A stretch of 64,000 bases of DNA, taken from Brachyhypopomus gauderio. Taxonomy: Eukaryota; Chordata; Actinopteri; Gymnotiformes; Hypopomidae. Location: contig NC_135218.1 in NCBI RefSeq assembly GCF_052324685.1, positions 12,478,858 to 12,542,857 on the forward strand, in the 5' to 3' direction. Below, in pieces: positions 10,905-64,000 of this stretch; position 1 is the first letter of the stretch; each line of letters starts with the position of its first letter. A model generated the notes under the pieces. That model did no database searches. It was given only the letters and a program-made list of their open reading frames with translations, and was not told the origin of the DNA. A program made the position numbers and the translations under genes.

Positions 10905-13900
10905 TCAAGACGGCTTGTCTCCCTCTTTCTTCAGACGGCTGTTGAACAGACGACAGCACAAAATGAGCACGAGAACAAACCCAGGTGAAACGCCATTGCG
11001 GCGGGTTCTATTGGACCTTACAGAAGGAGCCCGGTCTCACCTGTAGTAGTCCTCCTGGCTGGGGAGGGCGGCGCTGTGCAGGTGGGCGTGTCCGTGCAGC
11101 CACTGCTGCTCCAGCGCCAGACGCTGCAGCTCGGCCGACTGCGCCTGCATCGCCTGCAGCTGGTGCGCCGCAGACATGGGGCCCAGCGGGCCGGGCAGCT
11201 CTCGGGGGAAGGCCGCTCCTGCAAGCGCCACGCGGCGGACAGCAACGTTAGCGCTCAACAGATCAGCCACACAGGAAAAGGGCCGCGGTCCAGGCGACTC
11301 ACCGAAGAGGGGGTGGCGCAGGACGTCGTGTTCGTGGGGCAGTTCGGCCAAGAGAGGGTTGGGGATAGCACCTGGGGGATAAGGGAATCGGGCCATGGGC
11401 GGCCCGGCTGCCAGCGGGTCGACCAGCGGATGTGGTCCCGAGCCTTGGTGGGGAGACACGAGACTCTGGATCAGTCAGCAGACCCGGATACTGCTACTGC
11501 TCTTCACCAAAACATTCTCTCTCCTTTACTCTCCCACGATTATGTTAACGATGTAATGTGAGACTCACCCTGGTTGAGCGGATCCTGCTGGTGCAGATGG
11601 AGGTGGGAGTGAATGTGCGAGTGTTGGTGATGGTGAGGCGTGACGTTGAGCATCTGAAGCCTGGCGACGGGGTCTCCGGCCACCACGGTGGCGGCCATCC
11701 TCTCCGCGTGCAGCCGCTCGGCCGTCAGCCGCTCGGCGTACGTCAGCTCGGGCCGAGGCGGAGCCGCCACGTTGCGCTCCATGGCGGGGTGGAAGGCGGC
11801 GAAGGGGTGCGGCCCAGCCACATGGGGGAGGGGCAGGGCGCTGTGACGGGCGAAGTGCTCCATGGGGTTGGCCGACGGGTGGAGCTGGGCCTCCAGCTCC
11901 GGCGGTTTGACCTCGAAGCCCGGCTTCATCCTCTCCCGGATCTCCCTCTCGCGCAGCTCGCGGAGCTCTCGCTCGCGGAGGGCGGGGTCGGCCGCGTAGA
12001 GACCCTGCATGTGATAGGCCAACAGGTGGTCTCCCGGGCCGAGGGGCATGAAGAAGGGGTGGTTGCGGTTGCTGGGCGACATAACGTGTGGCCGGGCGTA
12101 CTCGCTAAGCGTGCGCAGGGCCGGCGTGTCGGGGCCAAGGTACGGCGGGACGGCGGCCACTGTGGTCGGGGGAGGAGGGTCGAACGAGGGCCGGACCTGT
12201 TGTGCGTGGGCAGCGAAGGGGTGGTCACCTAGACGACCATCATGGGACGAGCTAGAGGCCCGCTGTAAGTTATGAGAGACAATAACAATTTTTTCATGAA
12301 ATGCAAATCTTGCCAAAAAGAACATTTGGAGCTGGATTCCTGAACATAAACCGTCTACAAAATGATCAGACTGCACGAGCACTTACCGAAGCTTTGTCCG
12401 AATCTCGCTCCCTCTCGCGCTCCCTTTCTCTCTCCCTCTCGCGCTCGCGCTCTCGTTCGCGGCCCTGCCGCGCGCTCTGCTCCGCCTCCCTCCGGGACCG
12501 CTCGGCCGCCTCCTCCCGCTTCTTGGCCAGCTTGGAGGAGGCGAGCGGGGTGAAGTAGAGGTCGGTGCGTGAGCACGAGTTGTACCCTCTGTTCAGGTGT
12601 TTGATGAACCTGTCGTTCAACACAAAAGCCATCAGCAAAACAAGCTGCGATGACACCAGAGCCATTACGTCTCCGATAAAACCCTCCCCGTCTACGTTTA
12701 CCTCGCCGATTGGCTCGCGTGGCTGGGAATGTTGACCACCGTGGGCTCCGGGGAGGGACTCTGGCGGGGGGGAGGGGGGCTGTCACGGTCTTCGTCCTCG
12801 TCCACCGGCTCCTCTTTGATGGCCACGTGCGGGGGTGCGCTGGGGCCGCTGCCCGTGGACGAAGTGGAGGCCTGCGTGGCGGGAGCGGGGCACGAGGGCG
12901 GAGCCAGGGGGAACGCCGTGGCAGGCTCGGGGGCGGGGCGCGTCTGCGGGAGCAAAGGGTGGGGGCAGGCGGCAGCCGGAGTCACACCAGCCAGGTGACA
13001 TTTGCCTTGATGGCCCTGCGATGGAGAAAGCAGCGGGGGTTGAGGAGGATGAGACTGGGGCATGATGTGGAGGGGTGGAGGCTGAGAGCAGGGTGGATGC
13101 TGGGCGGGCAGGGAGGCCAGGGGCTTCAGGGCAGGAGGTGGAGGCAGGTTGGGGTGAATCTGCAGGAAGGGAGGAGCAGTGGGGAGGTGGGAAGGCTGTT
13201 TGTGAGAGGAGGGGATAGGTGTGGTCGGTGGGGGCTTGATCTGAGAGGCAGATGGCGGCGGTACTGGAGGAAGGAGACTCTCTCTCTGGAGGTGCAGTGG
13301 TTTAGGAGCAAAGCCGTGAGCGTGATGTGCTGCAGGAGGATGGCTTGGGTGGTGGTGATACTGGGCAGGCATTGGAAAGGACTGCCCGTGTACTGGGCTT
13401 GGTCCCTGGAAAGATGAGGGTCCAGAATGAGGCTGAGACACCGGAGTACCCTCCAAGCCCCTGGGACCCTCCAGGCCCCTGGGACCCTCCAAGCCCCTGG
13501 GACCCTCCAGGCCCCTGGGACCCTCCAAACCCCTGGGACCCTCCAGGCCCCTCTGACCCTCCAAGCCCCTGGGACCCCTCCTCTGAGCGATTACTGATGG
13601 ATCCTCCAGAGGAACATCCACAGGCACGACGACCCTGGAAGTGGCGGGGGCCACGGCGATTGTGGAAACTCCAGGAGAGGTTGCGCTTGAGGGCGACGGC
13701 TGAAAAGGCGTAGAGTTTGATGGCGACGGTGTTTGAGAGGGGGCAGGAGCAGCGGGCGGAGCAGCAGCAGCCTGCTGCACTTGGGTCGGGGGCCCGGGAG
13801 GAGGCGCCGGGACGGGGGAGTCGGAATCGCTCTCGTTGGCCGGCAGGGGGCTGGCGAGGCTCGGGGAGGAGCTGCGGTTGTCCTGGTCTATGTCCTTAGT

Positions 13901-15888
13901 GTCGCTGCTGCCGTCGTCATTAGCACTGCGACTGTCCGAGCTCTCCCCTTCACCCTCTCCCTCCGACTGGGAGTCCGGACTCTCCTGGAACAAGGTAAGC
14001 AGATACAAGGTAAGCAAATGTCCTACATCGCCTTGTCTATGAAATTATAGCATCATAATTTTGGCAAATAAAAATGTTTAATAATTCAAAAATGGCCACA
14101 GATGAGTGTAAAACCATCACATGGCAGAAAACCGGGACTGAAGGTGTTGGAGGCCGTTTTAGTCATCTGGATTGTTCCGTGTTACGTGGGCATGGTTTTG
14201 TTCCTCTTTACCTGATTCTTGGGCCTTTTCATGGTTTTTCTTTCTGGTTCATCCGAATCTGGGGCACCAGTTTCTCTCTGTCTCTTCACTCCCTTTACTA
14301 AAGATGCATCCACTTTCATCTTCTGAAACCCAGAGGCAAAATCATTACAAAATTCAAGATTAATCACAGCTAAAACGTGAATTAATAATTAAAAAGCAGA
14401 GCCTGCCACTCACAAATACGCAAGAAAAACACAAAACAATAATTATTACCTTGCTGGCCTTCCCCGTCACTCCAGGTTTGGTATCGGAACAGGATGCCCT
14501 GGTTGCCATAGCAGTGGAGCTAGATCTGGGGGTGTGGCCGCTGGCTCGGACATCATCGTGGGAGGGGGAGAGTCCCCTATCAGGGCTTCCTGTAAGTCTG
14601 TTCCGCCCACTTCTGAGAGACGACATCTAGAACAAGAAAAGGTATAATTATTTAAACTGCAGGAAGCTTTCCGAAGCTAGACAGAGCGTTTCAAACATGT
14701 AAAGCCGTACGTACCGGCGCTCTGCTCCGACGTGTCTTCATGCCATGTCGTGCACCGAGCCCCTCGTCCTCCTCTCGGACAGGTTTGAACAGGTAAGGCG
14801 GGTCGGTTGGCTTGGGAGCAGGTGGCAGTCGTCTGTGCTTGCTGAGGTGGGCGTGGCAGCCAGAGCACAGTAGGATGTTGTCACGCCCTCCGTGATGCCA
14901 GTCCTTAGAGCCTGACAGGGACATTACAGCCTATTAGAGGCAGGAAGCTCGCACAAGAGTGTACAGATGGAGCCTAAAGCATGTAAAGTGACTTTGGACA
15001 GAACCAAGATGAGTATTTTTGTAAAGCAGCTTTTGAGAACCAAATCCCTTTGCTTTATTTCCTTTTTCTACTCCAAGCTCTTTTGTTTTTAAAATAGCTT
15101 AGAGTAGTACTACATGCTTGGCGACTGCTGTTTAAAATGTCAGTGGATCACAAAGCCACAAGAAAACTGAATAAATACTGTCCAATACAAGAACTTCCAT
15201 GAAAAGCTGTGCTACCTTTACCTAGTACCCAAAGATTCATTATATGAAAATAAACTCTTCATATTCATAGTTAGGCTACTCCATAAAATGTCACAATGCA
15301 GACTTTCTTTGTGACACAATACATTAACTTGTACATGTTAGTGACAAAAAAAATTATGGCACAATATCAATTATTTCAAATGACAAAGTACAGCCGTACT
15401 AAAGAAACACAATTAATTTGAAATATGCAAATACACAATAATATTCAGAAAAAAAACAGTTTGCACAACAGCTGCAAAATCATACCTCCTGATGCAAAAA
15501 GAGAGGAACAAAAGTGGATCACGTATACCCCGCTATCTTTCAACGTTTAGATCTGCCTTAACAAAAAATTTCAGAATTTGAAATGAATATCACCGGCAGA
15601 TGGTAGAGGTGGTGGTGGTGACACTCTGTAACACTCTGTAACATGGTGATTGTGGCTTATGGTGGTGATGGTGGTGGTGTTGGGTAAGATGGTGATTGTG
15701 GCTGATGGTGGTGATGGTGGTGGTGTTGGGTAAGATGGTGATTGTGGCTGATGGTGGTGATGGTTGAGATGTACTTACTGGTGGTTAAACAATGGCTGCA
15801 AGCTTGACCTTTGCCCCCCTGCTCACTGTCCTCACTGTCCAGGTCGTCTTCGCTGGCTGAACTGAGCTCCACTGCAGCATGAAAGAGG

Positions 15889-15926
<38 letters not shown>

Positions 15927-18798
15927 CCGCTCAAAGGTTTCAGACGACCTTCAGCTCACTCAACAGACGCCACACATCCAAAGGGCACATCTGCGTCACG
16001 CTGTGCGGGACTCACCGGAGGAGGTGCGAGAGGTAGTATTGGCAGCAGCTGCGGCGTTGCGAGTCTTGACCTTGCGAGACGCAGGCTGCCGGCGGTGCTG
16101 GCGATGAGGTCGCGACCCCACCGCCTCAGGAGTTTTCTTCCAGTAGTAGTAGAATGTTATCAACTCACCCTGAGTATGAAGGCAGAAGATCAAATGAGCA
16201 CGAGCCTAGGAGAGCGAGAGTGTTTTCGTGCGCGAGCACTATTAAAGTTCTTCTACCGTTTTCTTATTGGCCAGCAGTTCTTTGCGTATCCTGAAAAAGT
16301 TTTTTCCATACTGTCTGAGACCTTTGATGAACCGCTTCTATTGACGCAGGAGAGAATAAGAGAAAGAAAACATACAAAGTTACATATCACATAAATACCG
16401 ACAAAAATAAACATCGCTAGAATGCAATATGTAATATATGAATGTAATATATCTAAACAGTTATTTTTGCTTTCACCACGGTACCAAGAGCTTCCACCAC
16501 AATATCATTTGTGAAGTGGGATCATGAGAATGTTAAAACATCACTTCTCACCACTTCATCCTCTGACCAACATTTCTCAATCAGTTTGGGGACCGGCTTC
16601 TTCACCAGGCACTGTAGGGCTTTGGCTGCATCATACTGGCTTTCATGGAGCTGCACACAAAAACCAAACAAAAAATCCCTTCCTCAAAAAACTCATTTAA
16701 AATGTTTTAAACAGCAATCATGAGGAATTTCTGCATGAAACATTTACTGCTGTATATGATGTCAGTAAATTAACTGCAGGGTTTTGCTTCTTACATTTCA
16801 CTACCACTTCCCAGAAATGTATATTTTAGTGTTTTTTTTAGTGTAATACTTGTTTATTCAACAGTGTATTACACCGTTGTTAAGCTTTAAAAATAGGAAC
16901 ATATACAAAGACATCTCAAATATTTACCGACCGTGTTCAAAGCATTCAGTGTAGTATCATCACGGGAGGCTGCGAGACAGCCATCTTCTGTTGAGCCTCC
17001 ATCACACATCCCTGCAAATGCTGCCATGCTCCTAAATACAGGAAGAAAATATAAACAAAACTCAGAGATAAGCCAATTTATAAACACTTGCCAGAAGGCA
17101 GCAAGCCTCCAAATTCCCTCCCCCACAACAGACATCATTAAGATTGTGTAGTCAGCTGTGGGGGAGGGGACTGGGAGGGGGGGGGGGGGGGCACACAGCC
17201 AAAAACCTCTTACCTGGCGGCCCGCAGGTACATGAGCAGGTCACAGTCGTTGACTCCAGGTGTCCAGACTAGCTCCTCTTTTTCTGTGACTGAGTGTGTA
17301 CTGGGAGCAGGCAGCGGCTGCAGCTCAGGGAGTTTGGCCTGCACACATACAAATGAAGCTAATAGCACGTTCATGGCAATCACACTGACCGACGTGCCTG
17401 CACGGTTATACATGCACATGAGAAAGTGCATGTAGACAGTACAAACATGCACATACAGTCTTTAAGCATCTTTGGGTTCTGAAAAGTGCTGTACAATTAC
17501 AGTTTATTATTATTATTAAGTCTATAGTGCAGAAGCATAAAAATATGCACCTGCTATTAGCTGTGATTGTTTTTATTATTCCAACAGGATTACTTATTCC
17601 AACAGGACCCAGTGGGTGTGTTTATCACCTACCTGGTGACTTGGGCCCACTCTAATCTCTCCTTGCGTGCTGTTCAGTTGCCTGAAAACACAGAAGACCT
17701 ATTAGTCTTGAAAATACGCAGCACAGAGATCTGCAATCATTTTGCTTCCATTACAGCATGAGGTATCCAGAAACAAGAGATATAACTTGACAGTAACATT
17801 CTGGTAACTTTTTTAACTTGACAGTACTATGCTGGTATTTTTTTAAGGGTAGAAATGACCAAAACATGTCACGTCAAAGTGAACCATCAAGAAAGCACAA
17901 ATCATAAGACGACAAGAGGAAATGACAATCCCATCTAAAAACTCAAGGATTTAAAAGCTAGAAAATAAATATCAACACCATTCAATAACTACAAGTGTGA
18001 TACGATGACGATGGGTATGTAGAAAAACGCTTTAAGTTACATATCAAAAACATATACACAAGTTCCGTCCCATTTATCCCGTTGAAACACACTTGTAAAA
18101 GTTTGAGCTGCGTCACGACGCGCACTCCTTTGATGTTTCTACCCTTTTAAATCGCCTCATTTTTAGTGTTAATCACAACATGTCACTCGCCTATCAGCAG
18201 TCAGGATTATCAATCTAAATCCCACCCATTTATCTCAAGTAGCCAATCAACGCCCGTCGGCATCGTTCCCTCCAAAGGTTATATAAACAGGACTTAAACA
18301 TGTACCGATTAGAAATGAGTAATTTTGCAAACGAGCATACATATTCATATAACTTTTACCTGGGAAAACGAGCGATTAACACGTGAAAACATTAAAAGAA
18401 ACGCAAACATTTATTATGCCATTTGGATCGGTTTTCGCTAACGCCACAGGAAAATAACCAGATGCACAGAGAACACTCCTTCCTCGAGAATAATCGAGAC
18501 TAACAAGTAATCAAACATAACTAAGTTGTAAAGCACACGACCGCCTTCACACGCGATATTCTAAACGACCGTCCGCCATGGTAGATAATCAGCATCTGTC
18601 CCATTTTCCTTCTCAAGACTGCCGTGGCTCCGCTGCCGTGTGTGGCCGAGCCAAGCTGTCAAGTTCATAATCGTCTGAGCCACATTTGCAGCACAAACGC
18701 AAAAGTAATTGCGGCGTCTGACAAAAAACGCAAACGGGCGAGTCATCGGCGAGGGAGAGAAACCCAACAAACCTTCGCGGACTGAATAAGTCGTCCAT
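10905..18798 (-). CDS. rere: RERE (arginine-glutamic acid repeats; atrophin family), form lacking BAH
   Basis: Nuclear receptor co-regulator that recruits HDACs. Seventeen coding exons (minus order): 18798-18773, 17681-17633, 17338-17214, 17031-16932, 16650-16552, 16337-16257, 16169-16016, 15871-15779, 14911-14715, 14626-14450, 14322-14212, 13984-12702, 12609-12387, 12262-11569, 11443-11303, 11218-11041, 10938-10905. They sum to 3765 bp, 1254 residues, all phases consistent. Order of domains: C-terminal part of ELM2 ([22 protein letters not shown]), SANT ([20 protein letters not shown]), GATA-type finger (CSHC...CSGC), proline-rich centre, the Arg-Glu dipeptide run, and the atrophin C-terminus ([34 protein letters not shown]). 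The first exon encodes only MDDLFSPR and joins in phase 2 where the BAH/N-ELM2 exons would normally connect. ENO1 begins 1.3 kb upstream on the same strand. Confidence 0.9.
13446..13577 (-). repeat. rere: coding minisatellite in RERE (GLEGPR repeats)
   Basis: A 15-bp unit (plus strand CCCCTGGGACCCTCC) is repeated about eight times inside the large RERE exon with alternating AAG/AGG variants. Read in frame on the minus strand it gives tandem GLEGPR-like units. I recall no such block in the proline-rich region of human RERE. Confidence 0.85.
15643..15766. repeat. GGT-rich minisatellite in RERE intron
   Basis: A unit of about 54 bp containing GGTGATTGTGGCTGATGG and GGTGGTGTTGGGTAAGAT is present twice with a partial third copy. 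It lies just downstream of a RERE exon end at 15779. Confidence 0.8.
15888..15926. repeat. (GA)n microsatellite
   Basis: A GAGAGA run with few interruptions, located 17 bases upstream (minus sense) of the RERE exon that starts at 15871. In the transcript it supplies a CT-rich polypyrimidine tract before that acceptor. Confidence 0.85.
17177..17191 (+). repeat. poly-G tract in RERE intron
   Basis: Fifteen consecutive G on the plus strand (C in the transcript), with further GGGG and GGG blocks upstream. It lies about 22 bases inside the intron after the RERE exon ending at 17214. Confidence 0.9.
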
Positions 18799-20051: not shown

Positions 20052-24322
<4,271 letters not shown>

Positions 24323-25218
24323 GTTGCTGGAAAAATACCAAACAAGGAGCAGAAATTAATAGTGAGTTTGGTAGCCATTGTTTTAGAAATTAAAAAATGA
24401 CTACGTGTCCTGTTTCTGTGGAAACCATGGACTTCACCATGTTAATATCCCTTATTCATTCATATTCACACACACGGCCTCCACTCCCAGATTGGTACTC
24501 ATCTGCGGCTTGAGAGGATTTAGCGCTTGCTCTCATGGTCAACATATTTCAATCATTTAACATATCCTTAACATATTTTTACTTTACGTTACTGTAAATA
24601 GACATTTGTTGTGAATTTGCTTTTAGAACACGTGTTACGTGAAATCAGTAGTTTCTATTTTTGTGCCAGAAACCAGTGCTTAGGGCTAACCACGAATTAG
24701 ATTAAGCGCAACGATCATTACAGACAGCTCTTTGGAGGAAGGTTTTTGTATCATGTCAGTTTTACCGAGTATTACCGCAATGTTAAATGTTAACAGATCT
24801 GTATTCCTCGTCGTCTGTTCCTTTCTATAATCAAACCAGAACTCATTTTCTTGTGTCCGGCAGCCATCGTTTAAATTCTAGAGGCAGACGATCAAATGTC
24901 TCTCTTGCAGGTTATTATGTTGATGACAATGAGTGACCCATAAAAGATAAAAAGCGATCCATACAACCCCAGGACAAACTACGTGTCATTTTTTAATACT
25001 TCAAGAGGTTCACGTAACGGAATCGTTTCTAGGGCTCCGTAAAGCCACATTGCGAGGACGTCGTCTATGGTTAAATATCTTAAATATTGATAGTTTGCTA
25101 GCTAGGTTACATCACAAAGTCACTCTTGCGTAACCTTGAAGGCTAGCCACCTAAATCCCTACAGACACGCCATATTAAAGGTGATGCGATGTACCATTTT
25201 TGTTTTGTTTTGTTTTAC

Positions 25219-25430
25219 CTTGCAGAAGCTAGTCGTGAAGGACAGTGAGGAAATTTCCAGATGAATTTGAAGGATTTCCAGATGAATTTGAAGGAGATTG
25301 CCAGCTGAAGTTCTTGGGGAATACACACCACCGCGCATGCGCAGACCGCTACTTACCGCCACCTGCAGCTTCCTTCGTTCTCCTGCATGTATTCATCTGG
25401 CCTGCATTAAAATGATTCCTTCTTCGGGGA
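25219..25430 (-). promoter_or_regulatory. eno1: ENO1 promoter and 5' untranslated exon region
   Basis: Two good minus-strand donors occur: GGTGGCG/GTAAGTAGC (exon end 25357) and TGCAAG/GTAAAACA (exon end 25219), which suggests alternative untranslated first exons. An NRF1-type palindrome CGCGCATGCGCA lies at 25332-25343. Between the donors is a short tandem duplication containing TTCAAATTCATCTGGAAATC (about 25255-25297). The next downstream exon carries the start codon at 24322. Confidence 0.5.
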
Positions 25431-26310
25431 ACATTTTGAAGTAGTCAGAGTATGGTATATGACGAAAATATACCAACTAATGGAAACTAAGGTGTATTCA
25501 CATTAAAAACGTATCCCGTGAGACTAAACAGAAAATTGCTTACGTTTATTCATAAGCATGAGGTCATAGTTTTTTCAAAATAATCCATTATTTTACGTCA
25601 TTCTTGTATTTTTTTCATGCAAATGAAACATATTCAAACTAGCAAATTTCACTCTAGCTCACTAATATTGTAATAGTATTTTTGTTTTGTTTGTTATTTT
25701 GTGAACTTATACAATTTAGTAATCAGTGGGTTATGTCGATTTTTGTGTGAGCCTTACTGGCTGTTGTCTGTTGATGTTGAATTTCTACCCTTGTTTAAAT
25801 TCCTAAATAGTTAGGAATTATAGATTAGAGTTACACAGTATATACAGTGGGTATAACATTAATGAAAATCTATTTTAAAAGGTTGTTCTTTACATTTAGT
25901 TACATTTGTGTTTTTTCTTTCACAAGTGCTTTTGAATAAAAACATTTGGATGTCAAAAGCATGTATGGGTTGGCCACTAAAATGACAAAATGTTTATTTT
26001 GTTTAAAAATTACATAGTCTTACTGTTATTAAAAATCACACAAAATAAAAGCAATCAAAAGTATTAAAATGGTCTCATGCCACACAGATCCTTACTGTAT
26101 ACACATGTTCATGCAGTGTATTATATCAATAATTATTACATGTCTTGTATTTTTTACCACTGATCCCACAGACATTTTTCCATACTGCTACCCAGAGGAG
26201 AAACTGATGAAATAAACTAAGGGACAAAGAAGTGTTTTGCACGAGATCCGTGACAACTCCTTTGGACTCCTTAGTAATCCCTCAGGTCATCTCCCCCTGG
26301 ACACAGACAT

Positions 26311-27549: not shown

Positions 27550-27960
27550 GACTTCTCTGGTCACCTAACCAATCATGGGACATGAGACACACCTGCATGT
27601 GCATGGAGCGCAAGGATTGGCCGCAACATGAAAACGATACCTGGGCAGGGCTCCAAGGTGTACCTGAAAACCCAGATCTTTTTGTAGGAGCAGTTTCTTT
27701 GCTTCAGGAGCTTAAGGAGATTGTGTTTCTTGTAGTGCTTGAGATTCCACTTCTATTGTTCTGCTGTTTTATGCCTCCATAACATCAACAGCTCTACTGA
27801 AACTGGTTTGTGAACTTTCAGCCAACGTGGAAGGAAGAGTTGGTCCTTCAACAAATGGAAGGAGCAGGAAGTGAAGTTCTTTGGCTAAAGCAACACAACG
27901 CGGCGACACAATGGCATCTCTTGTTCACCGCTGCGTACTGAATGACCACAGCGAGAATCA
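27550..27960 (+). promoter_or_regulatory. candidate promoter/first exon of the pri-miR-200 transcript
   Basis: A block clearly less AT-rich than its flanks. It contains CCAAT at about 27569, an inverted CCAAT (ATTGG) at about 27616, a CACCTG E-box at 27590-27595 and, at its end, a donor-like AATAGG/GTAACTTC. It is about 1.6-2 kb upstream of mir-200b on the same strand. This is inference only; no transcript boundary can be seen. Confidence 0.3.
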
Positions 27961-28716: not shown

Positions 28717-28750
28717 CAGGTGAGAGGTCAGTCAGGTGCAGGCTCAGGTG
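28717..28750 (+). promoter_or_regulatory. triple CAGGTG E-box cluster (ZEB/SNAI-type)
   Basis: CAGGTG occurs three times in 34 bp at 28717-28722, 28733-28738 and 28745-28750. CAGGTG/CACCTG is the known binding site of ZEB1, ZEB2 and SNAI repressors, which repress the miR-200b/200a/429 promoter in mammals. The cluster sits about 0.8 kb upstream of mir-200b. Confidence 0.5.
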
Positions 28751-29513: not shown

Positions 29514-29592
29514 TGGTCATCTCCATCTTACGAGGCAGTTTTGGATGTCATACTATTCTCTAATACTGCCTGGTAATGATGCAGATGGTCCT
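29514..29592 (+). ncRNA. mir200b: mir-200b precursor
   Basis: Epithelial microRNA that targets ZEB1/ZEB2 mRNAs. The 3-prime arm at 29561-29582 begins TAATACTGCCTGGTAATGAT, with seed AATACTG. The 5-prime arm at 29524-29545 begins CATCTTACGAGGCAG and pairs with it. The base of the stem extends by GTCATCT (29516) against AGATGGT (29583). The loop (about 15 nt) contains GTCATACTATTCTC. It is the first of three hairpins in the order known for the vertebrate cluster. Confidence 0.94.
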
Positions 29593-29767
29593 CTACAGGA
29601 CATCATTAAATATATACACATGTACCCATAGACATGTGCAGCACTAAAGGAGCACAACTATAATCCCTATGTCATGCCATACTGTGAAGACTAAAGAATC
29701 CCCTTAAATCTTAAGTAACTTGCTGTAAGCTGATAAGTGGTAACAAAAGAGGTGGAATTATGAGGTG

Positions 29768-29868
29768 ATATTGCTTCTCTGCTCTCAGGGCACATCTTAC
29801 CTGGCAGTGCTGGGCTGATTGCTGGTGTTCTAACACTGTCTGGTAATGATGCACACTGGGAGCAATGG
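29768..29868 (+). ncRNA. mir200a: mir-200a precursor
   Basis: The mature 3-prime arm at 29831-29852 begins TAACACTGTCTGGTAATGAT, with the miR-200a/141 seed AACACTG. The 5-prime arm at 29793-29814 begins CATCTTACCTGGCAGTGCTG. The outer stem pairs ATTGCT (about 29770) with AGCAAT (29861-29866). The mature arm has TAATGATG where I recall TAACGATG in zebrafish and human, a difference outside the seed. It lies 270 bp downstream of mir-200b. Confidence 0.93.
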
Positions 29869-30204
29869 AAACGACGAAACAAGACATGATGTGAAGAGTG
29901 TAGTAATTCAATATACAAATACTTGTAATCTATCATTCTCAGACTGGAACGCAACATCAGAAGCATCATTGCCTCTTAAAGCAGGCAAAATTAACACAAA
30001 TACTTCTAACTGAAATTCCAAACACGAGAGGAAGAAAATGTTGCTGAGACTGGTTTGACTATACAGACCACCTCACCAACCCTCTACACCCTGCTATTGT
30101 CATGAGATTCACCCATTAGTGTTTTCCACCCCACCCTGTATATATTGTACCTGTTACCTGTTACCTATAGTATGACTGCCTGGTGTCATAGTCCCCCCAC
30201 CCAG

Positions 30205-30230
30205 ACACACACACACACACACACACACCT
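30205..30230. repeat. short (CA)n repeat
   Basis: A run of about 13 CA units between mir-200a and mir-429. Confidence 0.85.
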
Positions 30231-30913
30231 AATAGTGTGCTCTGTCAACCTGTGATTGGTCCATCCAGCCCTACCTGCATGGCTTATTGTGTTGGTGACA
30301 CCTGAGACCTGTGTGAGGGGAAAAAGTCCACTTTTTACTCTGGATGATGAAGTGAGAGGACGTTATTGCTGTCACTGAAATAGATTAATAGGATCATAGA
30401 TCATACAGAATTATAGGAGTGAGTTAGGAGTTATTTTTCATTATTTGCATAAATTACAAAATGATAGAATCAAGAGGCCAAATTTCAAACTGCAGATTTG
30501 ATAGAATATACACAGCCTCTGACTGTACATAATAAGACGGAACACTTGAACAATGTCATGTATACCCAGATACTTCTGCAGACTGTATGTCCAACCTTCA
30601 TGGGTTGGGTGTTACACAAAACAGCATTTAACAACCATGTCATGTCAAGGCAATGTTTGCCAAGGGCCTGCTCTTAAAGTCTAGTGTAACCAAACCTTTC
30701 TTTACTTTGTCCCAACCTCCACCAATAGCAGCATGTGTACTGTTCTATTGATTTCTATAAACGTCCCATAATCCTCTTCTATTGCTCATCACACTCCACA
30801 CTTGCTGCCCCACAGCTTTATTTTCCACATCTAATTCTCCTACTCTCTTTCTTTCTGTCTTTGTGCAGTGTTGTCACAAAGCCCTTTTCCCTGGCCATAC
30901 ACCTCTACAAAAT

Positions 30914-30993
30914 CCTCTGATTTGCGTCTTACCAGGCAAGCTTAGATGTTGCTACTCTCTCTAATACTGCCTGGTAATGCCGCCAATCACAAG
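30914..30993 (+). ncRNA. mir429: mir-429 precursor
   Basis: The mature 3-prime arm at 30962-30983 begins TAATACTGCCTGGTAATGCC, with seed AATACTG as in miR-200b/c. The 5-prime arm at 30925-30946 begins CGTCTTACCAGGCAAG. The basal stem pairs TGATTTG (30918) with CAATCA (about 30984). The GCCG end of the mature arm identifies it as miR-429. It reads CTGCC where mammalian miR-429 has CTGTC. It lies 1.1 kb downstream of mir-200a. Confidence 0.93.
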
Positions 30994-32708
30994 GAAGATG
31001 ATCGTCATTCTGACCTCCTTGCTACACAGTCAGTGCAGGACATTTTCACACACATATCAGAATACCATCCTTATGTTTTAACTTTTTATGTATTACCCAT
31101 ATAATGGTCCTCTTATTGCAATATGAATGCTTGGTTTGCTATGCCATTACTAAATGAAGTGCATTAATGTATTTATATCTACGATTATGTATAAGCATAC
31201 ATCTAATCATTTTATTAATAATAAACAATTATTAAAATGTGTTGTCTGATAATATTCTCTGTGTGTTATTTTCAACCCCGGGTCAATAGGCTTCATTTAA
31301 ACATAGTTCAACAGAAAAATATACACACACAAGTTCAGACTTTTTAAATTAATAATTCCTTATTAAATCAAAGTGTATTTAAAAACCATGTTAATCAAGC
31401 ATTCAACACATACTTTGAAAACTGTTTGCAATGGTGCTACAAGTTTTGGCAATAGTTTTGATTGGTCAGAGGTTTATAAAGTGACTGAGATTAAGTCGAA
31501 GAATCCAATGGTAAGTGACCTGGCATAACAAATTACATTTGTCAGTAATAAAGGTGATAAAAAAAATGGAATAACTATTAAAGACCAGAATCCAATTTAC
31601 ACTTTATAGGCTTATGGTAGGCACCAGGGTCTTACACCAGATCCTAAAGCAAAAGCCTAAAACAATAGCCTCATTATCCCAAGTCATGACAATAGTCAAT
31701 CAAAAAGATAATCTGACATGAGAAATACCAAATAAATCATACAGTAATAAAAAAGAGAGTTGCTTTATCTACTTCTAACAAATTAGGTAAAATTCAATGG
31801 GCCACTTTTCAAAAGCACAGTTAAGACATTCAGCTATGTACTTGGTTGAAAATAGACTAGGCTACCAGCATCCAGAGGTGGACATACCAGGTTCATAAAG
31901 TAAAAGTCTTCCTAAATTGTGTTGATCCCACTAAATTTACCTGGCTGGATTAGAAAATACAGCAAGCTTGAATAAATTTCTGGGAAGGAGTTTTACTTTC
32001 TAAACCTGGACTGTTCACCTCTCCCAGTATCTACTAAAGACCTTCCTGCGCAAATCATGATATATTCCCTTTTAACATTGAACAATGTACAAGACAAAGA
32101 CACACGTGCTGTCCAACGATTAGCTACCCCAAATCTAAACTTGTAATGCGGTGTTATTTTACAACTATACGTTGTCATTCAAACCCGTTGTCTCCTTTTC
32201 CCATGCTACTTCAGTCCCCTCCAGTCTGCCATCTAAATATGTTTTACGTTAGATGTCAAGACAGTTTTGCCCCAAGCTATGTTCACGTACTGGGGGAAAG
32301 AACGTTGAAAAAGGCAACTTTCTGCATTCTTTCTTTCCCTTCTGTCGGTTTTCCTGACGTTGCTGCCAGTAAACAGATACTGGGTGAGCGAGTTACCTAG
32401 CAGGCAAGATGTGTGTTCTCTAAACCACGCGGAACTTATAGATATGGAAATGATTCACATATTGCGCAAATATAATAATTTTATGTATTACAACTTTTAC
32501 GTGAACCCTCAGTTTAGAAAGCTTATAGTCCCCCAGTCCGCTAGATGGTAGTACATAAAGTTATTAGTCTTCTCTTTGCAACAACAAACGGATTACTTCC
32601 TTTTTTAACAGTTCAGCGTGTCTCTTAGAGCATATATATAGTTATTTCGCAACGTAATTAATTCATAAATAAGTCGTTCACTTAATTTTCAGTTTCTTAC
32701 GACTAACA
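30994..32708. other. spacer between mir-429 and PPIL1
   Basis: AT-rich, no coding signal. The last 300 bp before PPIL1 are more balanced in composition and presumably contain its promoter; I see no diagnostic TATA box. Confidence 0.5.
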
Positions 32709-33886
32709 ATGTCAGGAGTACCACCAGACTCGTGGCAGCCCCCAACGGTTTCGCTTGAGACCACGTAAGTCCAAACATGTTCGCTTTAGCTAAATAATTT
32801 TTGAATGAATGAAGTGTTAAGGAACAGTGTCCAATTCACCGATCTTTGGCGAAGGAACGTAGCTAACACGTCTCTAACTTAGTTAAGTTAACTAACTGAC
32901 TGGTTGTGTAGATGGCGATCTTTTTGTAGCACTCCAAACGTACGACTAGTTAATATGTGTGACTAGTGATGTTCAGCCTCGTTTTCGATTGTTTCTAGAA
33001 TGGGAACAATCGTGATGGAATTGTACTGGAAGCACGCGCCTAAAACCTGCAAGAACTTTGCTGAACTGGGCAGAAGAGGCTATTATAACAATATTAAGTT
33101 CCATCGCATCATCAAGGACTTCATGGTTCAGGGGGGTGACCCAACAGGAACTGGTAAGCCCTGTCAGATTGTGCGGAGTTATACATGTTTAAATAATATA
33201 CTAAAAGATTTAACAAAACGAAAGTATTTAGTAGCAAGATTAGTACCAAACTAAACTATACTAGTTTACACTGCAAACGGGCAATTCTCTTTTTAATTAA
33301 GGTTAAATAGCTGTTTCTATATCTACATTACTCTATGGTATTTTTCTCATTATAGATACATAATTCTCTTTCATTTTTGCCACTTCAGGCCGTGGTGGTG
33401 CATCTATATATGGAAAACAGTTTGAAGATGAACTTCACCCAGAGCTGAAATTCACAGGTGACATTCACCTTAGCTGATATCTCTCAGTAGACTAGACTTC
33501 TAAATGATTAGTAGCTGTATAAACTTTTACAATATATGCATTTGGCAACAGCACATATGTGGATATTTAAAAGAAAAAAAAGACATAGTTCAGTCCTCTA
33601 CCTGAAAGCTGGCTTATATAGAGTAAAAAGCTGACCACTGCTTTCTTTTCGGTATTGTTGTCCAGGTGCTGGAATTCTTGCAATGGCTAATGCAGGCCCA
33701 GATACAAATGGGAGTCAGTTCTTTCTGACCCTGGCTCCCACTCAGTGGTTAGATGGCAAGCACAGTATATTTGGCAGAGTTTGCCAGGGCATGAGTGTTC
33801 TTAATCGAATTGGGATGGTGGAGACCAACAGTCAAGATCGCCCTGTTGAAGACATAAAGATCCTCAGAGTGACTCTACCTAACTGA
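32709..33886 (+). CDS. ppil1: PPIL1, spliceosomal peptidyl-prolyl cis-trans isomerase
   Basis: Nuclear cyclophilin that joins the spliceosome through SNW1/SKIP and catalyses Xaa-Pro isomerisation. Four exons: 32709-32764, 32999-33153, 33389-33457, 33666-33886, giving 166 residues, the same as human PPIL1. Seen: N-terminus [31 protein letters not shown] with the catalytic Arg (FHR) and Phe/Gln of the active site; [65 protein letters not shown]. All active-site residues of the cyclophilin fold are present and no frame break is seen. A polyadenylation signal (AATAATAAA) follows at about 33940. The in-frame Met in exon 2 is internal; the first exon supplies the true start. Confidence 0.96.
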
Positions 33887-34125
33887 AACATTTGTCTCAG
33901 TTTCTCTGATGTCTTATGACTTTGTACAGTTTTTTAAAATAATAAAAACTCATGGTTTGCAATGTGTGGATGAATATTTTAAATTTATACCTTATAGTGG
34001 TCAGCTTTTTAAAGTGGTAAATGTCACTGCTTTCACAACACTTCTGTATAAAATTAAGCCCCTTAGGGATGCAGACTGTTTCTTTTTTTTTTTTTACAAA
34101 CATTTGTGAAAGAAATGGGTTGCTT

Positions 34126-35053
34126 TCAGGAGCTCAGTGAATTCCAGCATGGAACTGTGATAGGATGCCACCTGTGCAACAAATCCAATCATGAAATTTC
34201 CTCACTGCTAAAGTGAACCACAGTCAGCTGTATTATAAGAAAATGGAAGTGTTTGGAACAACAGCAACTTCAGACACTGTGGTAGGCCATGTAAACTGAC
34301 AGATGCTGAAGCGAATAGTGCGAAAAGAGGTCGCTAACTTTGTCAATCACTACAGACATCCAAACTTCATGTGGCCTTTAGATTAGCACAAGAACAGTGC
34401 ACAGAGAGTTTCATGGAATGGGTTTCCATGGTTGAGCAGCTGCATCCAAGCCATACATCACCATGTTTAATGCAAAGCGTCAGATGCAGTGGTGTAAAGC
34501 ACACCGCCACTGAACTCTAGAGCAGTGGAGACGTGTTCTCTGGAGTTACGAATTGCGCTTCTCCATTTGGTAATCTGATGGATGAGTCTGGGTTTGGTGG
34601 ATGCCAAGAGAACGATACTTGTCTTACTGCATTGTGCCAATTTGGTGGAGGGGTGGGATTATAGTGTGGGGTTGTTTTTCAGCAGCTGGGCTTGGCCAGT
34701 ACACAAAGCAAGGTCCATAAAGACATGGATGGCAGAGTCTGGTGTGGATGGACTTGACTGGCCTGCACAGAGTGCTGACCTCAACCCTATAGAACTCCTT
34801 TGGGATGAATTAGAGTGGAGACTGAGAGCCAGGCCTTCTATGTGACCTCACAAATGCGCTTCTGCACCAAAAATTCCCATAGACACACTCCTAAACCTTG
34901 TAGACAGCCTTCCTAGAAGAGTTGTAGTTATTCTAGCTGCAAAGGGTGGACCAACATCAAATTGAACAATTAATGTCAATTAATGAGCTTAATGTCAATT
35001 AAGCTCATATGTGACCCAAGGAAGGTGAGCATATAATTTTGGCAATATAGTGT
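34126..35053 (+). mobile_element. decayed Tc1-like DNA transposon
   Basis: Recognisable Tc1 transposase coding sequence in several frames: GGAGCTCAGTGAATTCCAGC near the left, a GMGFHG-like helix region around 34415, then [11 protein letters not shown] at about 34665 and the final SADLNPIELLWDELE segment at about 34775-34820. The right terminal inverted repeat ends in TTTTGGCAATATAGTGTA. The left terminal repeat is not recognisable, internal blocks are missing and the frame is broken several times, so this copy is inactive. It lies just beyond the PPIL1 polyadenylation site. Confidence 0.85.
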
Positions 35054-38000
35054 ATCTTCCAGGCACCCCAAAGTGGAGGTTGAATTTGAGGACTTCTCAT
35101 TCTGCCTGTGATGTCTTAAAAAACAGATCTTTCCATCACCAGTGCAAAACCAGGTGGGATGCCCAAAAATTACCTGTTCAACAGTGGGACTCGCTGCGAA
35201 CCTGCAAAGAATACTATACTGTATTTTCAGCCAGGTCCCTGCATTGGTGATGGGCTGGTTGTTCAAGAGCAATGGCAATATAGCTACACAATCTCAATAT
35301 TAATCATATGCAGCACAAGACCTATAATAATCCCATATTGGCTTATATTAGTTATATTAGTGACCTGAAGCTAGAAAGCAACCAAAATGAAGCTCTCCCT
35401 AGCACTGGTCTTCTCTTCCTGCTGTAGCAGACACTAGAGAATAGTGGATACCTGATGCAGACTCTTCCTAGGATGTCCTGGTACCTAGAATCCCCTGACC
35501 CCAAGACCTACACATTGTCCCTGGTTTAGTGGTAGCTTCAGTCTTACAGCTAAATAGCAAAGTCATTCTAGTTAAGAACACTTACCCAGATGCAAATGTA
35601 CCAAGAATTAACAACTATCTGTAACAATATATCTAAGACTTTCTTCCAAACATGAAAGAACCATGAAAATGGAATGCTAGGCTTCATCCTGTGAATCCAT
35701 CATCACCTCTTAAGTGCCAGAGATCTTTAAAATGATATGCAAAAAGGCAAAGTCCTTGTTGATGGTGTTTGAAACATTTCAAAAGAGTTTCTATCATTAT
35801 AGAGGACAGACAACATAACAGTAAGAATTCTTTTGGTGGAGTGCTCCACATTCTGGGGGCAACAGCGGCAATGCACAATGTATTAAGAAATATAAGATTT
35901 TGCTGGATAATATTGTAGTAAAGAATCATACAATTATATTTAATTTAACAGAGATTTCCTGTTACTACAATCAGACTCATGAAGATTAAAATATGTTGTG
36001 ATTTTCCATACCTTAAGCCTCAGCCATTCTTTCCCCCCTACTTTTGCATGTTATTGAAAATTAGTGGTCATATACAGGTCACACCATGTATTCTAAGATG
36101 ATATAAATCCTCAGAGATGAGCACTAGATTTCCTGACAATTCAAGGAGCCACAGTAAAAAAAAGGGTGGTAAAAAAGGAGACAAATTCAGTAAGCCATTA
36201 TAATAACAGACAAAAAAAGACATTACTTTCAGTGAACAAGTGCTAAAATACAAGTATGTAAAATTACATCTGGTCTATTAGTGGCATCTCACAATTTTCA
36301 AATATGCCCAGGGCTTAATGTAGATTATCTCAAAATATACAGCTGATGGAAAGACTCTCAAATTTAACAGGACACAGAGGCCGCTTACCTTAGACTCTAT
36401 GTTCCACTCTTCTGATCTAAGCAATGATACATTTGGCACTTTCCCAATGTGGCATTTTAAAATTACATGTGAGTACAAATATTTCTTTAGAGTTCCATTT
36501 TTAATATTGACATTACATTTAATCACATTCATTTTTATTGTACAAGCCTTTCTCTTCAAAGGTTTATATGACTGAAAATAACATTCAATATGGGGCATGC
36601 CTGCTGTTGCATTGTGAGGAAGAGGAACGGGGTTAGAACTGCAACTACAACACACTACTGAAGTTCTCACCTCTTTGTACAGAGATGACAATGCATTGTT
36701 CATCTAATGAAATGAAGTTCAATGCATGGACTGTTTATCCTACAATTTGACTGCTGTGGCAAAAGTAGTGTGTTGCAACGACGAACACAGGAGAAGCTGA
36801 CTGCCACCGCATACCCATATATATGTTATGTACACACACAGAGATACATACTTACAAGAGAATGTAAATACTGTATACAAAGAAACCAACTGGAAAAAAT
36901 TTGAAATTCCAAGACAAAACAGTAACACTTTTTTTCATCAGCGGGGAATAGAAACATCAAGTGTAAATGGCCTGATGTAGGCGGATTACACGCCTTTCTC
37001 TGTGTTACAATCATACAGAGAGTAAGACTGTTCATCTGTTCATAGAGCGTCCAGAACAGCAGGCTCTAAAGAAGAGTCCATGCATAAACCGCTCTCATTC
37101 TCTCTTACTCAGACACATTTGGCACATAGTCACATTAATGTACAGTACATCACAGTCATTGAGCTCTGCCTAAGCCTTATTAAGACAATATATGATGCCC
37201 AACTGCAGGAAGTCATTCAGTTTTCAGTTAGGTTTCCTTCGCGACCCTCTTCAGTTGAAAATTCATCTCGGGTTAGGATGAAAACAGAATTTTCACTTAA
37301 TGGATGCAGATACCAAGTATGACATTGCATCAAAGGAGAGGTACATAGTTGTTTGATGAAAACTCGGATGAAAATATCAAATTCAGGAAAGTCTAAGCAA
37401 AGACTGCAGGTAAGCCACTAATTAGTCATAAATGCTAAGTGAACCTTGAATATTTCGTAAATTTTGAAACTCATAAGTTTACAGTGGGATTTACAATAGC
37501 GTAGAATCATTGCTGTCCTATTCATATTTTCAGTGCAACCAGTCTAGGTCCAAAGTGTGACCCAAGACATGAGATTCACAGCGAAGAGCTACTTCAGATT
37601 TACCCTGATAATGGAATAAAAGTCATGATAACCATGGAAAACCCTGACAAAAAAGAATCACAATACAAAGAGGCCTCACACAAATGATGAAAACAGGATT
37701 CTAAGATATGTGCTACTGTACCTTAGCTTTCCTGCAATCCAATAACAATACATTTCAGTTCAATGATTGTTTGGCAAATATCACCAGTGGCACAATTAGG
37801 TTCTTTATAATCCTATTTCTCACAGTTAAAACAAATACAATTTCCCCTACACCCCAGAGCCTGATTTAAGTACCCACAGCACACATGTATCATCACAAGG
37901 CCTGAGAAAGACAGCAACCCTAGTGCTGATCAAGACCTCTTTGAAAGGTGACCAAGCCTATGGTTCTTACCACAGGTCATCTTTCAACTTAGACAAACGC

Positions 38001-40413
38001 TGATATGACTCCAATAGCTGTTATTGCAAAATGTTTTTCACATATTACCAAAAATATAGATGTTAAAACTAGATTGATTCTCTCAAAAATGTTGAAAAGT
38101 GTCCAAATAGTTTATCATCGCATTCTTAAGAGTTCATTACAAAAACTGTAATGTACTTGTATGAGTGTATGTGTTACAGGTTAATTTTGTTTGGTTTAAC
38201 CTTCTTACAGCTTTACTGCAGTGAAATGTAAGGCCCAGCTAAATAGAAACAGTTATCTAATAACTAAGTAGTGGGCATGTATATCAGGTTTATGTAATTA
38301 ATAAATGTATACATTTATTCAACTTACATTCCTTTTAAACCTTGACCTTTCTAAAAATTCTTGTTCTTCTTTAAAAATTGGCATTCCTTGTGACAGTGAA
38401 AATACAGGATCTCAAATGCCTAATGAAACCCAAAAGAGGATGAATACTCAAACCTTCTTGCTCACGCTGGTCCTACAGAAGTAAATGAATAACAATGCCT
38501 TTTTTGACAAGTCAAATTACCAGTTACTGTAATTAAGTGTGGCCTTTCATTCAGTCCAGTATGGCTGCCCCTTTCAATGTGAAAACCTTTTTCCCTGCCC
38601 ACCTGAACAGCAAAACACTATTACTTTCCACCTATTTTCCAAACGTTCATAGACAACCACAGGTAAGCACTACATGCGCCGTTGGGGCGGTACCTGCGAT
38701 TATAACATTAAAATGTGAAAAAAAAACATGAGGAACACACTGTTCTCAAAGTATATTTACACAATGATGAAAGTTTGAAAAATTGGTGGAAAGTCCTTAA
38801 TAGGCTGTATAAAATGGAAATAGATTACTTGCTTAAGACAAGCAAATACTTTTGGGTATTTTCCTAACATCCCATAGGACTCTAGTCTTAGACTAAAATT
38901 CTGCACTCTTCCTTCCATTATCTATATTTTTCACTTTGGAGACACCCCCCCCTCCTTTAACTAGATGAACTGTCAGTTACAGAATTCTAACCAGCATCCA
39001 TATTCTAACCATCTTTATCACAATGTGATGCAAATACATTTTCAAGTTAACACATAGATGACCTCTTAGTGTAGATGGGCAAGCGTAAATGCTGACTAGA
39101 ATTCTGTGACTGATTTAAGAACTTCTGAGTTAATCAACAAATATGCAGTAAAACCATCCCTCACTGGGATGTACAATTGGGATTTCTTAAGGAATAGGTA
39201 AACAAGTTAGAATCATAAAGGTTAGATCCCTGGATAGCTTATAATAATCTTTGTAGTTGTAGAGTAGAGCTGCATTTTATTTTCAGTTGTTGTTGTAGTT
39301 AGCCCTCAAATCCCACATTCACCAATGGCACATGATTCAATATACTCAGCTGTTTGGCACAATATATGGTCAATATAATATTATTATTTAGCATGTAATT
39401 GCAATTCTTAAAAGACTAAAAATGGCAATCTCTAATCTGTGGTTTCCCTCATTGCCTGCAGAACCTCAACTATAATTAGTGTTAAATACAAAAATTTAAC
39501 AAATAAATACATAAATAATCATAAATTAAATAAATATAATTTGCCTACTTAAGGCTTATGGAATGACATTTTTCTTCAGTTATAAAAAATAATGAATGTC
39601 TCTCTCTGCATGTAAATGTCTATGATGTTTACACAATCTTTCAAAAACAGATTTACATAAATACACACTCTCAGATTTGCACTCCATTAATACTTGAACA
39701 TAAATCACTCACAGATAATTGTTTCCTTTGGGGGAAACCTTATTCAAAAGGTTCTTGTCTACATCTTACTCTAAGAGACAACTTACTGAAAAATCTTTTC
39801 TAAAAGAAATGAAAGTATAGACTTCCATCATCAAAATTTATAGGATTTTTTTCCTCTAGGCAAAAAATGGTATCAAGATATAGAATGTAATCTTTACATG
39901 GGACATGAGCAAAATTACTGTGTATGAACAAGCTTATAGACACACAGCACTCTGACTAGAGCTTATCTTGCCTTTCTGTAGCTAGCCCATTATAGAGTGG
40001 CTTGGGACTACAGCTAGGTGCATTTTTTATGAGGTTGTTACTTTAAAATACCTTATTTTATCATGTAAATCTTTAACATTACAACAGTTGTAAGCCTCCA
40101 GTTATTAAGGGGTGATTTCATTACAATTTGTACCAAAACACGTACCAAAATAGAACCAGGTCATCTCTGGTACCAAAAACAATTATGGACCTTCTTTAAA
40201 AATTGCATTCACTCATATAAATTTAGCCAAATATACTTTCACCTGACTATGTCAACAATAAGTAATTGGTTTGAGTGTTAAAAATATGAATGTGGGGACA
40301 ATCTAACTTAATGCTGAGAAGATTAATAATTCCACCAGAGCTCCATCCTTACACTTTTCTGCTCTTATCCATAATTCTACTCTTTTCTCTTCATTTACTC
40401 CTCTAGTCACCTC
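35054..40413. other. long AT-rich region, probably including the FRS3 3' untranslated region
   Basis: More than 5 kb with no supported coding exon on either strand. The part next to 40.4 kb lies downstream of the FRS3 stop codon and is likely 3' untranslated sequence. Open frames up to 141 codons (36278-36703, minus) lack recognisable domains. Several short A/T runs occur, but no clear repeat family. Confidence 0.5.
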
Positions 40414-42956: not shown

Positions 42957-44175
42957 TCTCACTGTTGGGTGTTTGTGGGGTTCGAGGTAAGTCCATTTCT
43001 GGCGCGTGACTGGGCCGGGTCATGATCATGGGCTCCTCCACCACATTGATACTGTTGCACTGCATCAGCTCCTGCAGGAGGTTAAAGATCTCCTCTGCAC
43101 GAGAGCATTTAAATGCAAAGATCCCTGCAAGGGCAAACAACAGAGCACTTTAACTCCAGCGTTTATTGCATACACACACAAATTGAGTACAAGAAATACA
43201 ACTGGGAAGAACAACCAAATTCAACATCAATATATAATGCAAGTTTTCCAGAGAGAGGGAAATATATATTTTAGCTAACATAGTAACTTTGTTTTCAGTG
43301 TGTTCCGCACCAATTTTTCATTGTTGATCACTTATCGTGCCACTAGGAGGCAGTATACTACTATATATCATGTAATAGTCTTCTTCGCCCTCACATAGTT
43401 GAAGCCCAAGTTACTATATTTTCATGTGAATGCAGTTCATGAAGAGTATTGGAGATCAAAAGCAACTGCCCAGTGGATGATAAATACTACAATCAATTCA
43501 GTCCAAAGAAATAATTAATGTCAACTCTACTTTCACAAATGTTACACATTTCCACTTCCCTGGGAGTCTCTATAGCCCAGTAAGATGTAATAACCATAGA
43601 CACAGAAATAAAGCACAGGGAAATCCAGACACTATGAATTCCTAGACCATTTGAATAATCAAAGGTGTCTCTTCTACTGAATGCCACACTTATTCTCCGA
43701 TCACCACAAACTCAAATATCAGTCTAGGAGTTGCTAACCCAAGACAATGGAAACTTAAGCAGTACTGTACCCACCCTGCCCCGTCTGGCAGCGTCGCCCG
43801 CTCTCGAAGGAGAAGAGGTTGGAGTCATATCCGTAGCGGCGCAGGCACAGGTACGGCCACCGGATGGCATCGCGTTTGCGCGTGTGCAGAATGAGCTCTG
43901 TTTGGGTGAGCTCCATCGTCCCCGATCCCAGCTCGTTCCCTTCATCGTCCACGTTCGTTACCTGCACGTAACAACGGCTCGTTTACAGAATCAACAACTC
44001 CACGGCGCAGGTGCAACTCCATGGCTTTTATGTATCTGAATTTTAGATGTTGGTCCATTTCTTGAGTGCATCTTCATTTTGTACTGAAAATAGTTGTGCA
44101 AGTGTTTACCTTAAATTTGGTGGGGTGGGTGTCTTGGATGGAGTCTCTATACAGACAGCTCCAACAGCTCCCCAT
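40414..44175 (-). CDS. frs3: FRS3, fibroblast growth factor receptor substrate 3
   Basis: Membrane-anchored docking adaptor linking FGF and neurotrophin receptors to GRB2 and SHP2. Coding exons: 44175-44110, 43961-43775, 43124-42963, 42345-42224, 41975-41076, 40857-40414, in phase, 626 residues. MGSCWSC gives an N-myristoylation site. An IRS-type PTB domain spans about residues 20-115 (NVDDEGNELGSGTMELT, LCLRRYGYDSNLFSFESGRR, FAFKCSRAEEIFNLLQELM). Docking tyrosines lie in TYVNT, LTYENINGL, LLNYENLP, QNYVNTE and QLNYIQVDLE. The C-terminus is RDDGTSRKTRHNSTDLPL. VFSFDF and the final DLPL favour FRS3 over FRS2, as do the 6p21-type neighbours. A strongly acidic Glu/Asp run lies upstream of EYEYSEGPG. 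The intron 40858-41075 interrupts what I recall as a single large terminal exon in mammals. Confidence 0.93.
40889..40970. repeat. (TG)n microsatellite inside an FRS3 intron
   Basis: Perfect TG/CA run of about 80 bp. It makes up over a third of the 218-bp FRS3 intron 40858-41075. Confidence 0.95.
42920..42953. repeat. (TG)n repeat at an FRS3 donor
   Basis: TG run starting 10 bp into the FRS3 intron that follows the exon ending at 42963. Confidence 0.9.
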
Positions 44176-48000: not shown

Positions 48001-48253
48001 TTTGTAGGTTTCATGAATAATGGGGCTTAAACACTATAGAAAAAAACAGCTGGAATAGTGATTTCAGAAAGACCTGTTAAGAGAGTGACAGAAAAAAGTC
48101 ACCTGTCATTCACTTCTATATAAATAAAATAGATGGCCCTAAAAGTGTTTCATCTTTCATCAAATGCAAAGAAAAACAGTATAGGTTATTACAAGTATTA
48201 TTCAAAATACATATTGACTATGCCATTTCATTTTTATCATTTGTATTAAAATT

Positions 48254-48800
48254 AGTGGTGGGCCGTTATCGGCGTTAACGGCGTTCGATAATGTGATACT
48301 CTTATCGGTCGATACAAAAAATATTGCCATTAATCTATTCTTAAAGTTGGGTTGGGAACTGGGTCAAAATGGGTAAGCAAACTATGATGACTTTCACCTT
48401 GATAGTTTAGCTCGGGTGTATTCCTAACCAAATTGCACAGTAGGGGGTGAAACGAGTTTTCAAACCTGTGGATTACAAAGACTACCACAACAAATCGCAC
48501 AAGTGTTTACATGGATGCAGCCACAAAGCCGTCAGGTTTGCTTCATGTAAAATTCATTTTTAAGAAGCTTCCTAATGGAGACATTGACAAGACTAAAGTT
48601 GTTTGCACCTTATGCAATGCGGAATTAGTTTACTGTAGGAGTACTACCAGTCTGAAGTACCATTTAAACGCAAAGCACCCGTTTGCTAATGCTGCTGACG
48701 CTGGGTCAAGCACTGATGCAGCCCAGGGCAAGAGTCGCCACCAAACTACTCTGAGTGCAACCAAGGCAAGGTCAGCGCAGCTCTATCAGACAAGTTGACC
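48254..48800 (+). mobile_element. 5' part of a hAT-type transposon with BED zinc finger
   Basis: An open frame at 48511-48798 encodes a BED finger: VVCTLCNAELVY with CxxC, then LKYHLNAKH with HxxxxH, after an MDAATKPSG start. BED fingers head hAT transposases and ZBED proteins. The frame stops soon after the finger and no catalytic hAT core follows, so this is a truncated copy. The left edge near 48254 (TAGTGGTGGGCCGTTATCGG) resembles a hAT terminal sequence. A domesticated ZBED gene is unlikely because nothing follows the finger. Confidence 0.65.
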
Positions 48801-63926: not shown

Positions 63927-64000
63927 CTATAAAGGAAAGTTAAACAATGAGTGTCTGTACCTGCTGCTACATGCACTTAATACAATTATGTCATGTAAAA

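Follow-up and report, generated by a model that had tools for sequence, protein, structure and literature searches.

Which of the vertebrate mir-200 clusters lies beside the enolase gene in this 64 kb window (the whole stretch of DNA analyzed here), and is it likely to be a working one? A preliminary description had claimed a complete cluster of three hairpins in the canonical order, with seeds AATACTG, AACACTG and AATACTG, between ENO1 and PPIL1, and had named it mir-200b/200a/429. Among 4227 Rfam families, RF00241 (mir-8/mir-141/mir-200) was the sole one to score high enough in the window, where its covariance model gave three full-length matches, all on the plus strand, inside the three stretches claimed and above the gathering cut-off of 47 bits (Table 1). 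Folding had been suggested as a check; as 86-nt sequences, hairpins 1, 2 and 3 gave z-scores of -5.3, -3.5 and -5.0, with 0, 1 and 0 of 500 dinucleotide shuffles, respectively, equally stable; chance hairpins are ruled out by the Rfam scores together with these shuffles. The 3p arms carry the claimed seeds in the claimed order, the enolase and the PPIL1-like gene flank the trio as described, and all three seeds are those of the mir-200 family, which has a second seed besides that of group I. The group I seed is given in the available text of PMC9221129. If 2-nt overhangs are assumed for these folds, each star arm is 21 nt long, and the three start with ATCTTAC, ATCTTAC and GTCTTAC, respectively. 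The members of the trio are almost certainly genuine mir-200 genes, and the cluster is a real, complete and ordinary one, of a kind expected in any vertebrate.

Table 1. Features of the window, and of the second mir-200 cluster on contig C10, with the evidence for each.
Feature	Position	Strand	Evidence or remark
RING ORF	1013-1699	+	
RERE-type atrophin gene	11543-17683	-	Pfam Atrophin-1 on two ORFs; presumed human RERE guide
ENO1 (alpha-enolase) coding exons	20058-24322	-	presumed human ENO1 guide; best PDB match alpha-enolase
Conserved non-coding element, candidate promoter or enhancer	27569-27715	+	partner C10:78868-79021
Three CAGGTG E-boxes in 34 bp, candidate ZEB/Snail sites	28717-28750	+	at 28717, 28733 and 28745
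mir-200 hairpin 1 (putative fish mir-200c type)	29519-29586	+	RF00241 67.7 bits, E 5e-13; fold; guide
Hairpin 1, 3p arm	29561-29582	+	TAATACTGCCTGGTAATGATGC
mir-200 hairpin 2 (putative fish mir-141 type)	29788-29856	+	RF00241 59.8 bits, E 9e-11; fold; guide
Hairpin 2, 3p arm	29831-29852	+	TAACACTGTCTGGTAATGATGC
Second, weaker conserved element, between hairpins 2 and 3	30244-30306	+	partner C10:84599-84661
mir-200 hairpin 3 (putative fish mir-429b type)	30920-30987	+	RF00241 61.7 bits, E 3e-11; fold; guide
Hairpin 3, 3p arm	30962-30983	+	TAATACTGCCTGGTAATGCCGC
PPIL1-like cyclophilin coding exons	32709-33871	+	presumed PPIL1 guide; Pfam PF00160 on last exon
PTB-domain exon	43758-43982		
TspO-family exon	51761-52045		
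RhoGEF exon	58260-58433		above Pfam cut-off
RhoGEF exon	58457-58747		below Pfam cut-off
C10 hairpin 1	83405-83472		RF00241 above cut-off
C10 hairpin 2	83599-83667		RF00241 above cut-off
C10 hairpin 3	85440-85508		RF00241 above cut-off

The enolase gene stands head-to-head with the cluster, and a presumed human ENO1 guide sequence aligned with it in eight stretches from the start codon at 24322 downward (a further row at 6695-6504, E 0.78, was a chance match). Against PDB, this enolase scored 861 bits with alpha-enolase, 813 with gamma and 810 with beta. The distance of 4 kb from ENO1 given in the preliminary description holds from a CpG-rich stretch at 24500-25499 (4.0 kb), which is probably the ENO1 promoter, and fails from the start codon, which lies 5.2 kb from the cluster. 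Downstream of the cluster, the presumed PPIL1 guide aligned in four stretches beginning with the start at 32709, and a CpG-rich stretch at 32000-32999 is the likely PPIL1 promoter; over the 6.5 kb between the two CpG-rich stretches, the observed/expected CpG ratio is at most 0.5, with no CpG-rich promoter near the cluster. The next gene beyond ENO1, also on the minus strand, is an atrophin, with Pfam Atrophin-1 matches in ORFs at 11543-12382 and 12701-14044; exons as far as 17683 aligned with a presumed human RERE guide. Two short RERE-like exons (16525-16683 and 15999-16205) gave no Pfam domain, and the designation as RERE type thus depends on that guide. That guide aligned from residue 277 onward; residues 1-276, which we take to be the BAH region, gave only chance rows in the window (E 1.3 and 2.7), and the gene may be short or may have its first exons outside the window.

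A search of the genome (796.5 Mb in 840 contigs) revealed at least six places above the RF00241 cut-off, in two triple clusters, of which the second (C10:83405-85508) was absent from the preliminary description. The search scored 65 of 103,962 first-look candidates, a depth at which a diverged copy could escape; among the candidates scored no third cluster was seen, nine other places reaching at most 25.8 bits against the cut-off of 47, while six minus-strand rows below the cut-off were the antisense of the six mir-200 hairpins. RF00241 scores in the C10 cluster (62.4-66.9 bits) compare with 59.8-67.7 in the window, and the star arm of the third C10 hairpin measures 24 nt under the same assumed overhang. 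The hairpins of the two clusters match by position, with 80, 70 and 72% identity for the pairs 1-1, 2-2 and 3-3, as against 55-67% for the six remaining cross pairs. Around the C10 cluster lie laminin-G/EGF exons (presumably agrin), a RING ORF and RhoGEF exons, and a related RING gene and a related RhoGEF gene flank both clusters. When the ORFs of the window were compared with C10:6001-154900, 20 rows passed an E-value of 1e-4: the RING gene in one (48% over 167 aa) and antisense readings of it in three, pieces of RhoGEF exons in five (34-57%), miRNA hairpins in two, and probably repeats in the remaining nine. The RING gene is on the plus strand in the window and on the minus strand on C10, so at this point at least the two loci have undergone rearrangement of gene order, and the RERE, ENO1 and PPIL1 guides found nothing in C10:6001-154900 at E 0.01.

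Likeness between the two loci extends to non-coding DNA. The element 1.8 kb upstream of hairpin 1 matched its C10 partner with a blastn E-value of 2.8e-8 (best for the reversed control, 1.5) and a local alignment score of 83, which none of 100 shuffles reached (maximum 65); the window stretch 34000-39000 scored 49. Within it, ZEB-type sites are aligned, CACCTG at 27590 with CACCTG at C10:78889 and TACCTG at 27638 with CACCTG at C10:78938. The weaker element has TGTGATTGG.CCA and TACCTGCATGGC in common with its partner (blastn E 0.004, with 1 of 300 shuffles scoring as high); two AT-rich minus-strand rows at E 0.029 are probably noise, and the downstream stretches of window and C10 had nothing in common beyond shuffles (70 of 100 equally high). 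The three CAGGTG boxes upstream of hairpin 1 form the only triple of this kind among the window's 48 E-boxes, and none of 5000 Markov-1 sequences held a triple within 40 bp, in a test made after the triple was noticed. The C10 stretch has no equally tight triple, its nearest upstream boxes being at 78836, 78889 and 78938. In zebrafish, overexpression of Zeb1b lowers both miR-141 and miR-200b, which belong to different clusters, and its knockdown raises them, according to the available text of PMC3696638, which also notes, for both clusters, E- or Z-boxes in spacers and in putative promoters and states that boxes are conserved between zebrafish and human mir-200c/141. From these Zeb1b effects and the boxes at both zebrafish clusters we infer, as a fair analogy, that the window cluster would likewise be under ZEB control.

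The presence of two triple clusters in this genome mirrors the zebrafish situation, where, according to the available text of PMC4623745, six mir-200 members are divided between a locus on chromosome 6 and another on chromosome 23; an excerpt of PMC2427041 places 141/200c on chromosome 6 and 200b/200a/429 on chromosome 23. Antisense oligos in the available text of PMC3696638 lead to mature sequences of TAATACTGCCTGGTAATGATGAC for zebrafish miR-200b, TAACACTGTCTGGTAACGATGC for miR-141 and TAATACTGTCTGGTAATGCCGT for miR-429. Compared with these, guide 1 of C10 agrees with miR-200b at 22 of 23 nt and that of the window at 21 of 23, the latter being identical across the first 21 nt, and guide 3 agrees with miR-429 at 22 of 22 nt on C10 against 20 of 22 in the window. 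Guide 2 is tied at 21 of 22 nt with miR-141, since the window has the last base of miR-141 and C10 has its base 17, and hairpin 2 leaves the type of cluster unsettled. By guides 1 and 3, two of the three, C10 would be the chromosome 23 type and the better counterpart of fish mir-200b/200a/429a; because its guides fit that set better, the window copy would be the chromosome 6 type (mir-200c/141/429b), mainly by elimination and from presumed zebrafish 200c and 429b guides. In fish usage, the name mir-200b/200a/429 proposed for the window cluster is thus probably off. The window cluster resembles the zebrafish chromosome 6 cluster in its three hairpins and seeds (PMC4623745, available text) and differs from it by one base in the 141-type guide, at position 17. 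The first spacer is also the wider one, at 201 bp between Rfam matches in the window and 126 bp on C10, compared with 118 bp between stem-loops on zebrafish chromosome 6 and 49 bp in the other cluster (PMC3696638, available text), a weak likeness that rests on two clusters only. The guide strings of the window that were looked for did not appear in print in the one literature library searched. We also take eno1b to lie on zebrafish chromosome 6. That the window cluster is itself the chromosome 23-type mir-200b/200a/429a would agree with its gene order and seeds, and with the identity of guide 1 to miR-200b over 21 nt, but is very improbable given the closer fit of the C10 guides. Still less probable is a decaying, unexpressed copy that merely continues to fold; the lack of a CpG-rich promoter nearby would suit it, but the seeds and stems are intact, the Rfam scores are about those of the C10 cluster, and the upstream element is conserved.

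The descent of the window cluster is a separate matter from its fish name. In human, RERE and ENO1 map to 1p36, while their paralogues ATN1 and ENO2 are neighbors of mir-200c/141 on 12p13. The human mir-200b/200a/429 cluster is at 1p36.33 and mir-200c/141 at 12p13.31 (PMC9221129, available text), the latter with two genes only in the available portions of PMC9221129 and PMC4623745. The window cluster resembles the 1p36.33 cluster in its three genes (PMC9221129, available text) and seeds. RERE and ENO1 share the chromosome arm of that human cluster, which differs from the window cluster in distance, lying megabases from ENO1 as against 5.2 kb from the ENO1 coding start here. With the 12p13.31 cluster the window cluster has in common the seeds and a place near an enolase and an atrophin, whereas that cluster has two genes only in the texts available and its flanking genes are the other paralogues. 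Orthology with mammalian mir-200c/141, from a split in the early vertebrate duplications and with mammals losing the 429 gene that fish retained, would fit the fish naming of the cluster, the box conservation stated for zebrafish and human mir-200c/141 (PMC3696638, available text) and two of the seven quartet sites obtained with presumed human hairpin sequences; of the others, four join the window with C10, leaning weakly toward that pairing, and one supports the third grouping. Yet we consider this orthology rather unlikely, as the flank is not of the ENO2/ATN1 type: the enolase is closer to alpha than to gamma, and the atrophin aligns with RERE-specific parts of the presumed guide. Moreover, RING and RhoGEF relatives stand beside both fish clusters, and hairpin 1 is nearer to human 200b (73%) than to 200c (68%), with hairpin 2 at 66% to both 200a and 141 (presumed human sequences). 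Alpha-enolase, the RERE-type atrophin and the related neighbors of both clusters favor a teleost-duplication pair from a 1p36-type cluster, and a window cluster that is a fish-specific duplicate of human 1p36 mir-200b/a/429 rather than an orthologue of mir-200c/141, a reading that depends in part on presumed human positions and sequences. The animal is taken to be a teleost from its double triple cluster and the size of its genome. Because the neighbors point to such a duplicate, mir-200b/200a/429 may after all be the better label for the window copy by descent, and its nearness to ENO1 probably reflects an ancient linkage and nothing peculiar to this fish, if the orthology is right. On balance, we lean toward the view that the cluster annotated in fish as mir-200c/141 is the teleost-duplication twin of mir-200b/200a/429, with no orthology to mammalian mir-200c/141 and with a loss of the 12p13-type cluster.

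Taken together, the hairpins and seeds, the two clusters with their related neighbors and the conserved element, all directly observed, make it likely that the window holds a working mir-200 polycistron of the fish chromosome 6 type, one of two copies that the teleost genome duplication would have left of a single 1p36-type cluster; its transcription, processing, targets, ZEB control and date of duplication we infer. A single long non-coding transcript would start upstream, probably at or near the element 27569-27715, and would be cut by Drosha and Dicer into three duplexes. Loading would select the 3p arms as guides, with seed AAUACUG in hairpins 1 and 3 and AACACUG in hairpin 2. In epithelium, the guides would silence zeb1/zeb2 and other targets, and ZEB proteins would in turn repress the cluster through the upstream E- and Z-boxes, forming the known two-way switch. 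If this descent is true, the RERE-ENO1-mir-200 block of the window, with its presumed human counterpart ATN1-ENO2-mir-200c/141, would keep an atrophin-enolase-mir-200 linkage that predates the vertebrate genome duplications, and the enolase/atrophin linkage would serve as a simple marker with which to follow the cluster across them. Work that relies on the shared name to transfer findings between miR-200c/141 of fish and of mammals may then compare paralogues. In one library, searches for a link of mir-200 with RERE/ENO1 or ATN1/ENO2, or for its duplication history, returned nothing that seemed relevant as judged by title and abstract.

Several further features were observed in the window. Short frames at 48205-48795 match C10:100278-103708 with up to 91% identity, probably through a common transposon. 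Two long open frames had no Pfam match at E 0.01, one of 578 codons at 62206-63939 on the minus strand, near the window edge, and one of 938 codons at 5044-7857 on the plus strand, the first residues of which resemble what we take to be PERM1, a 1p36.33 gene. The PPIL1-like, PTB-domain FRS-like and TspO-family genes (32709-53100) presumably correspond to human 6p21, and the window may join 1p36-like and 6p21-like blocks.
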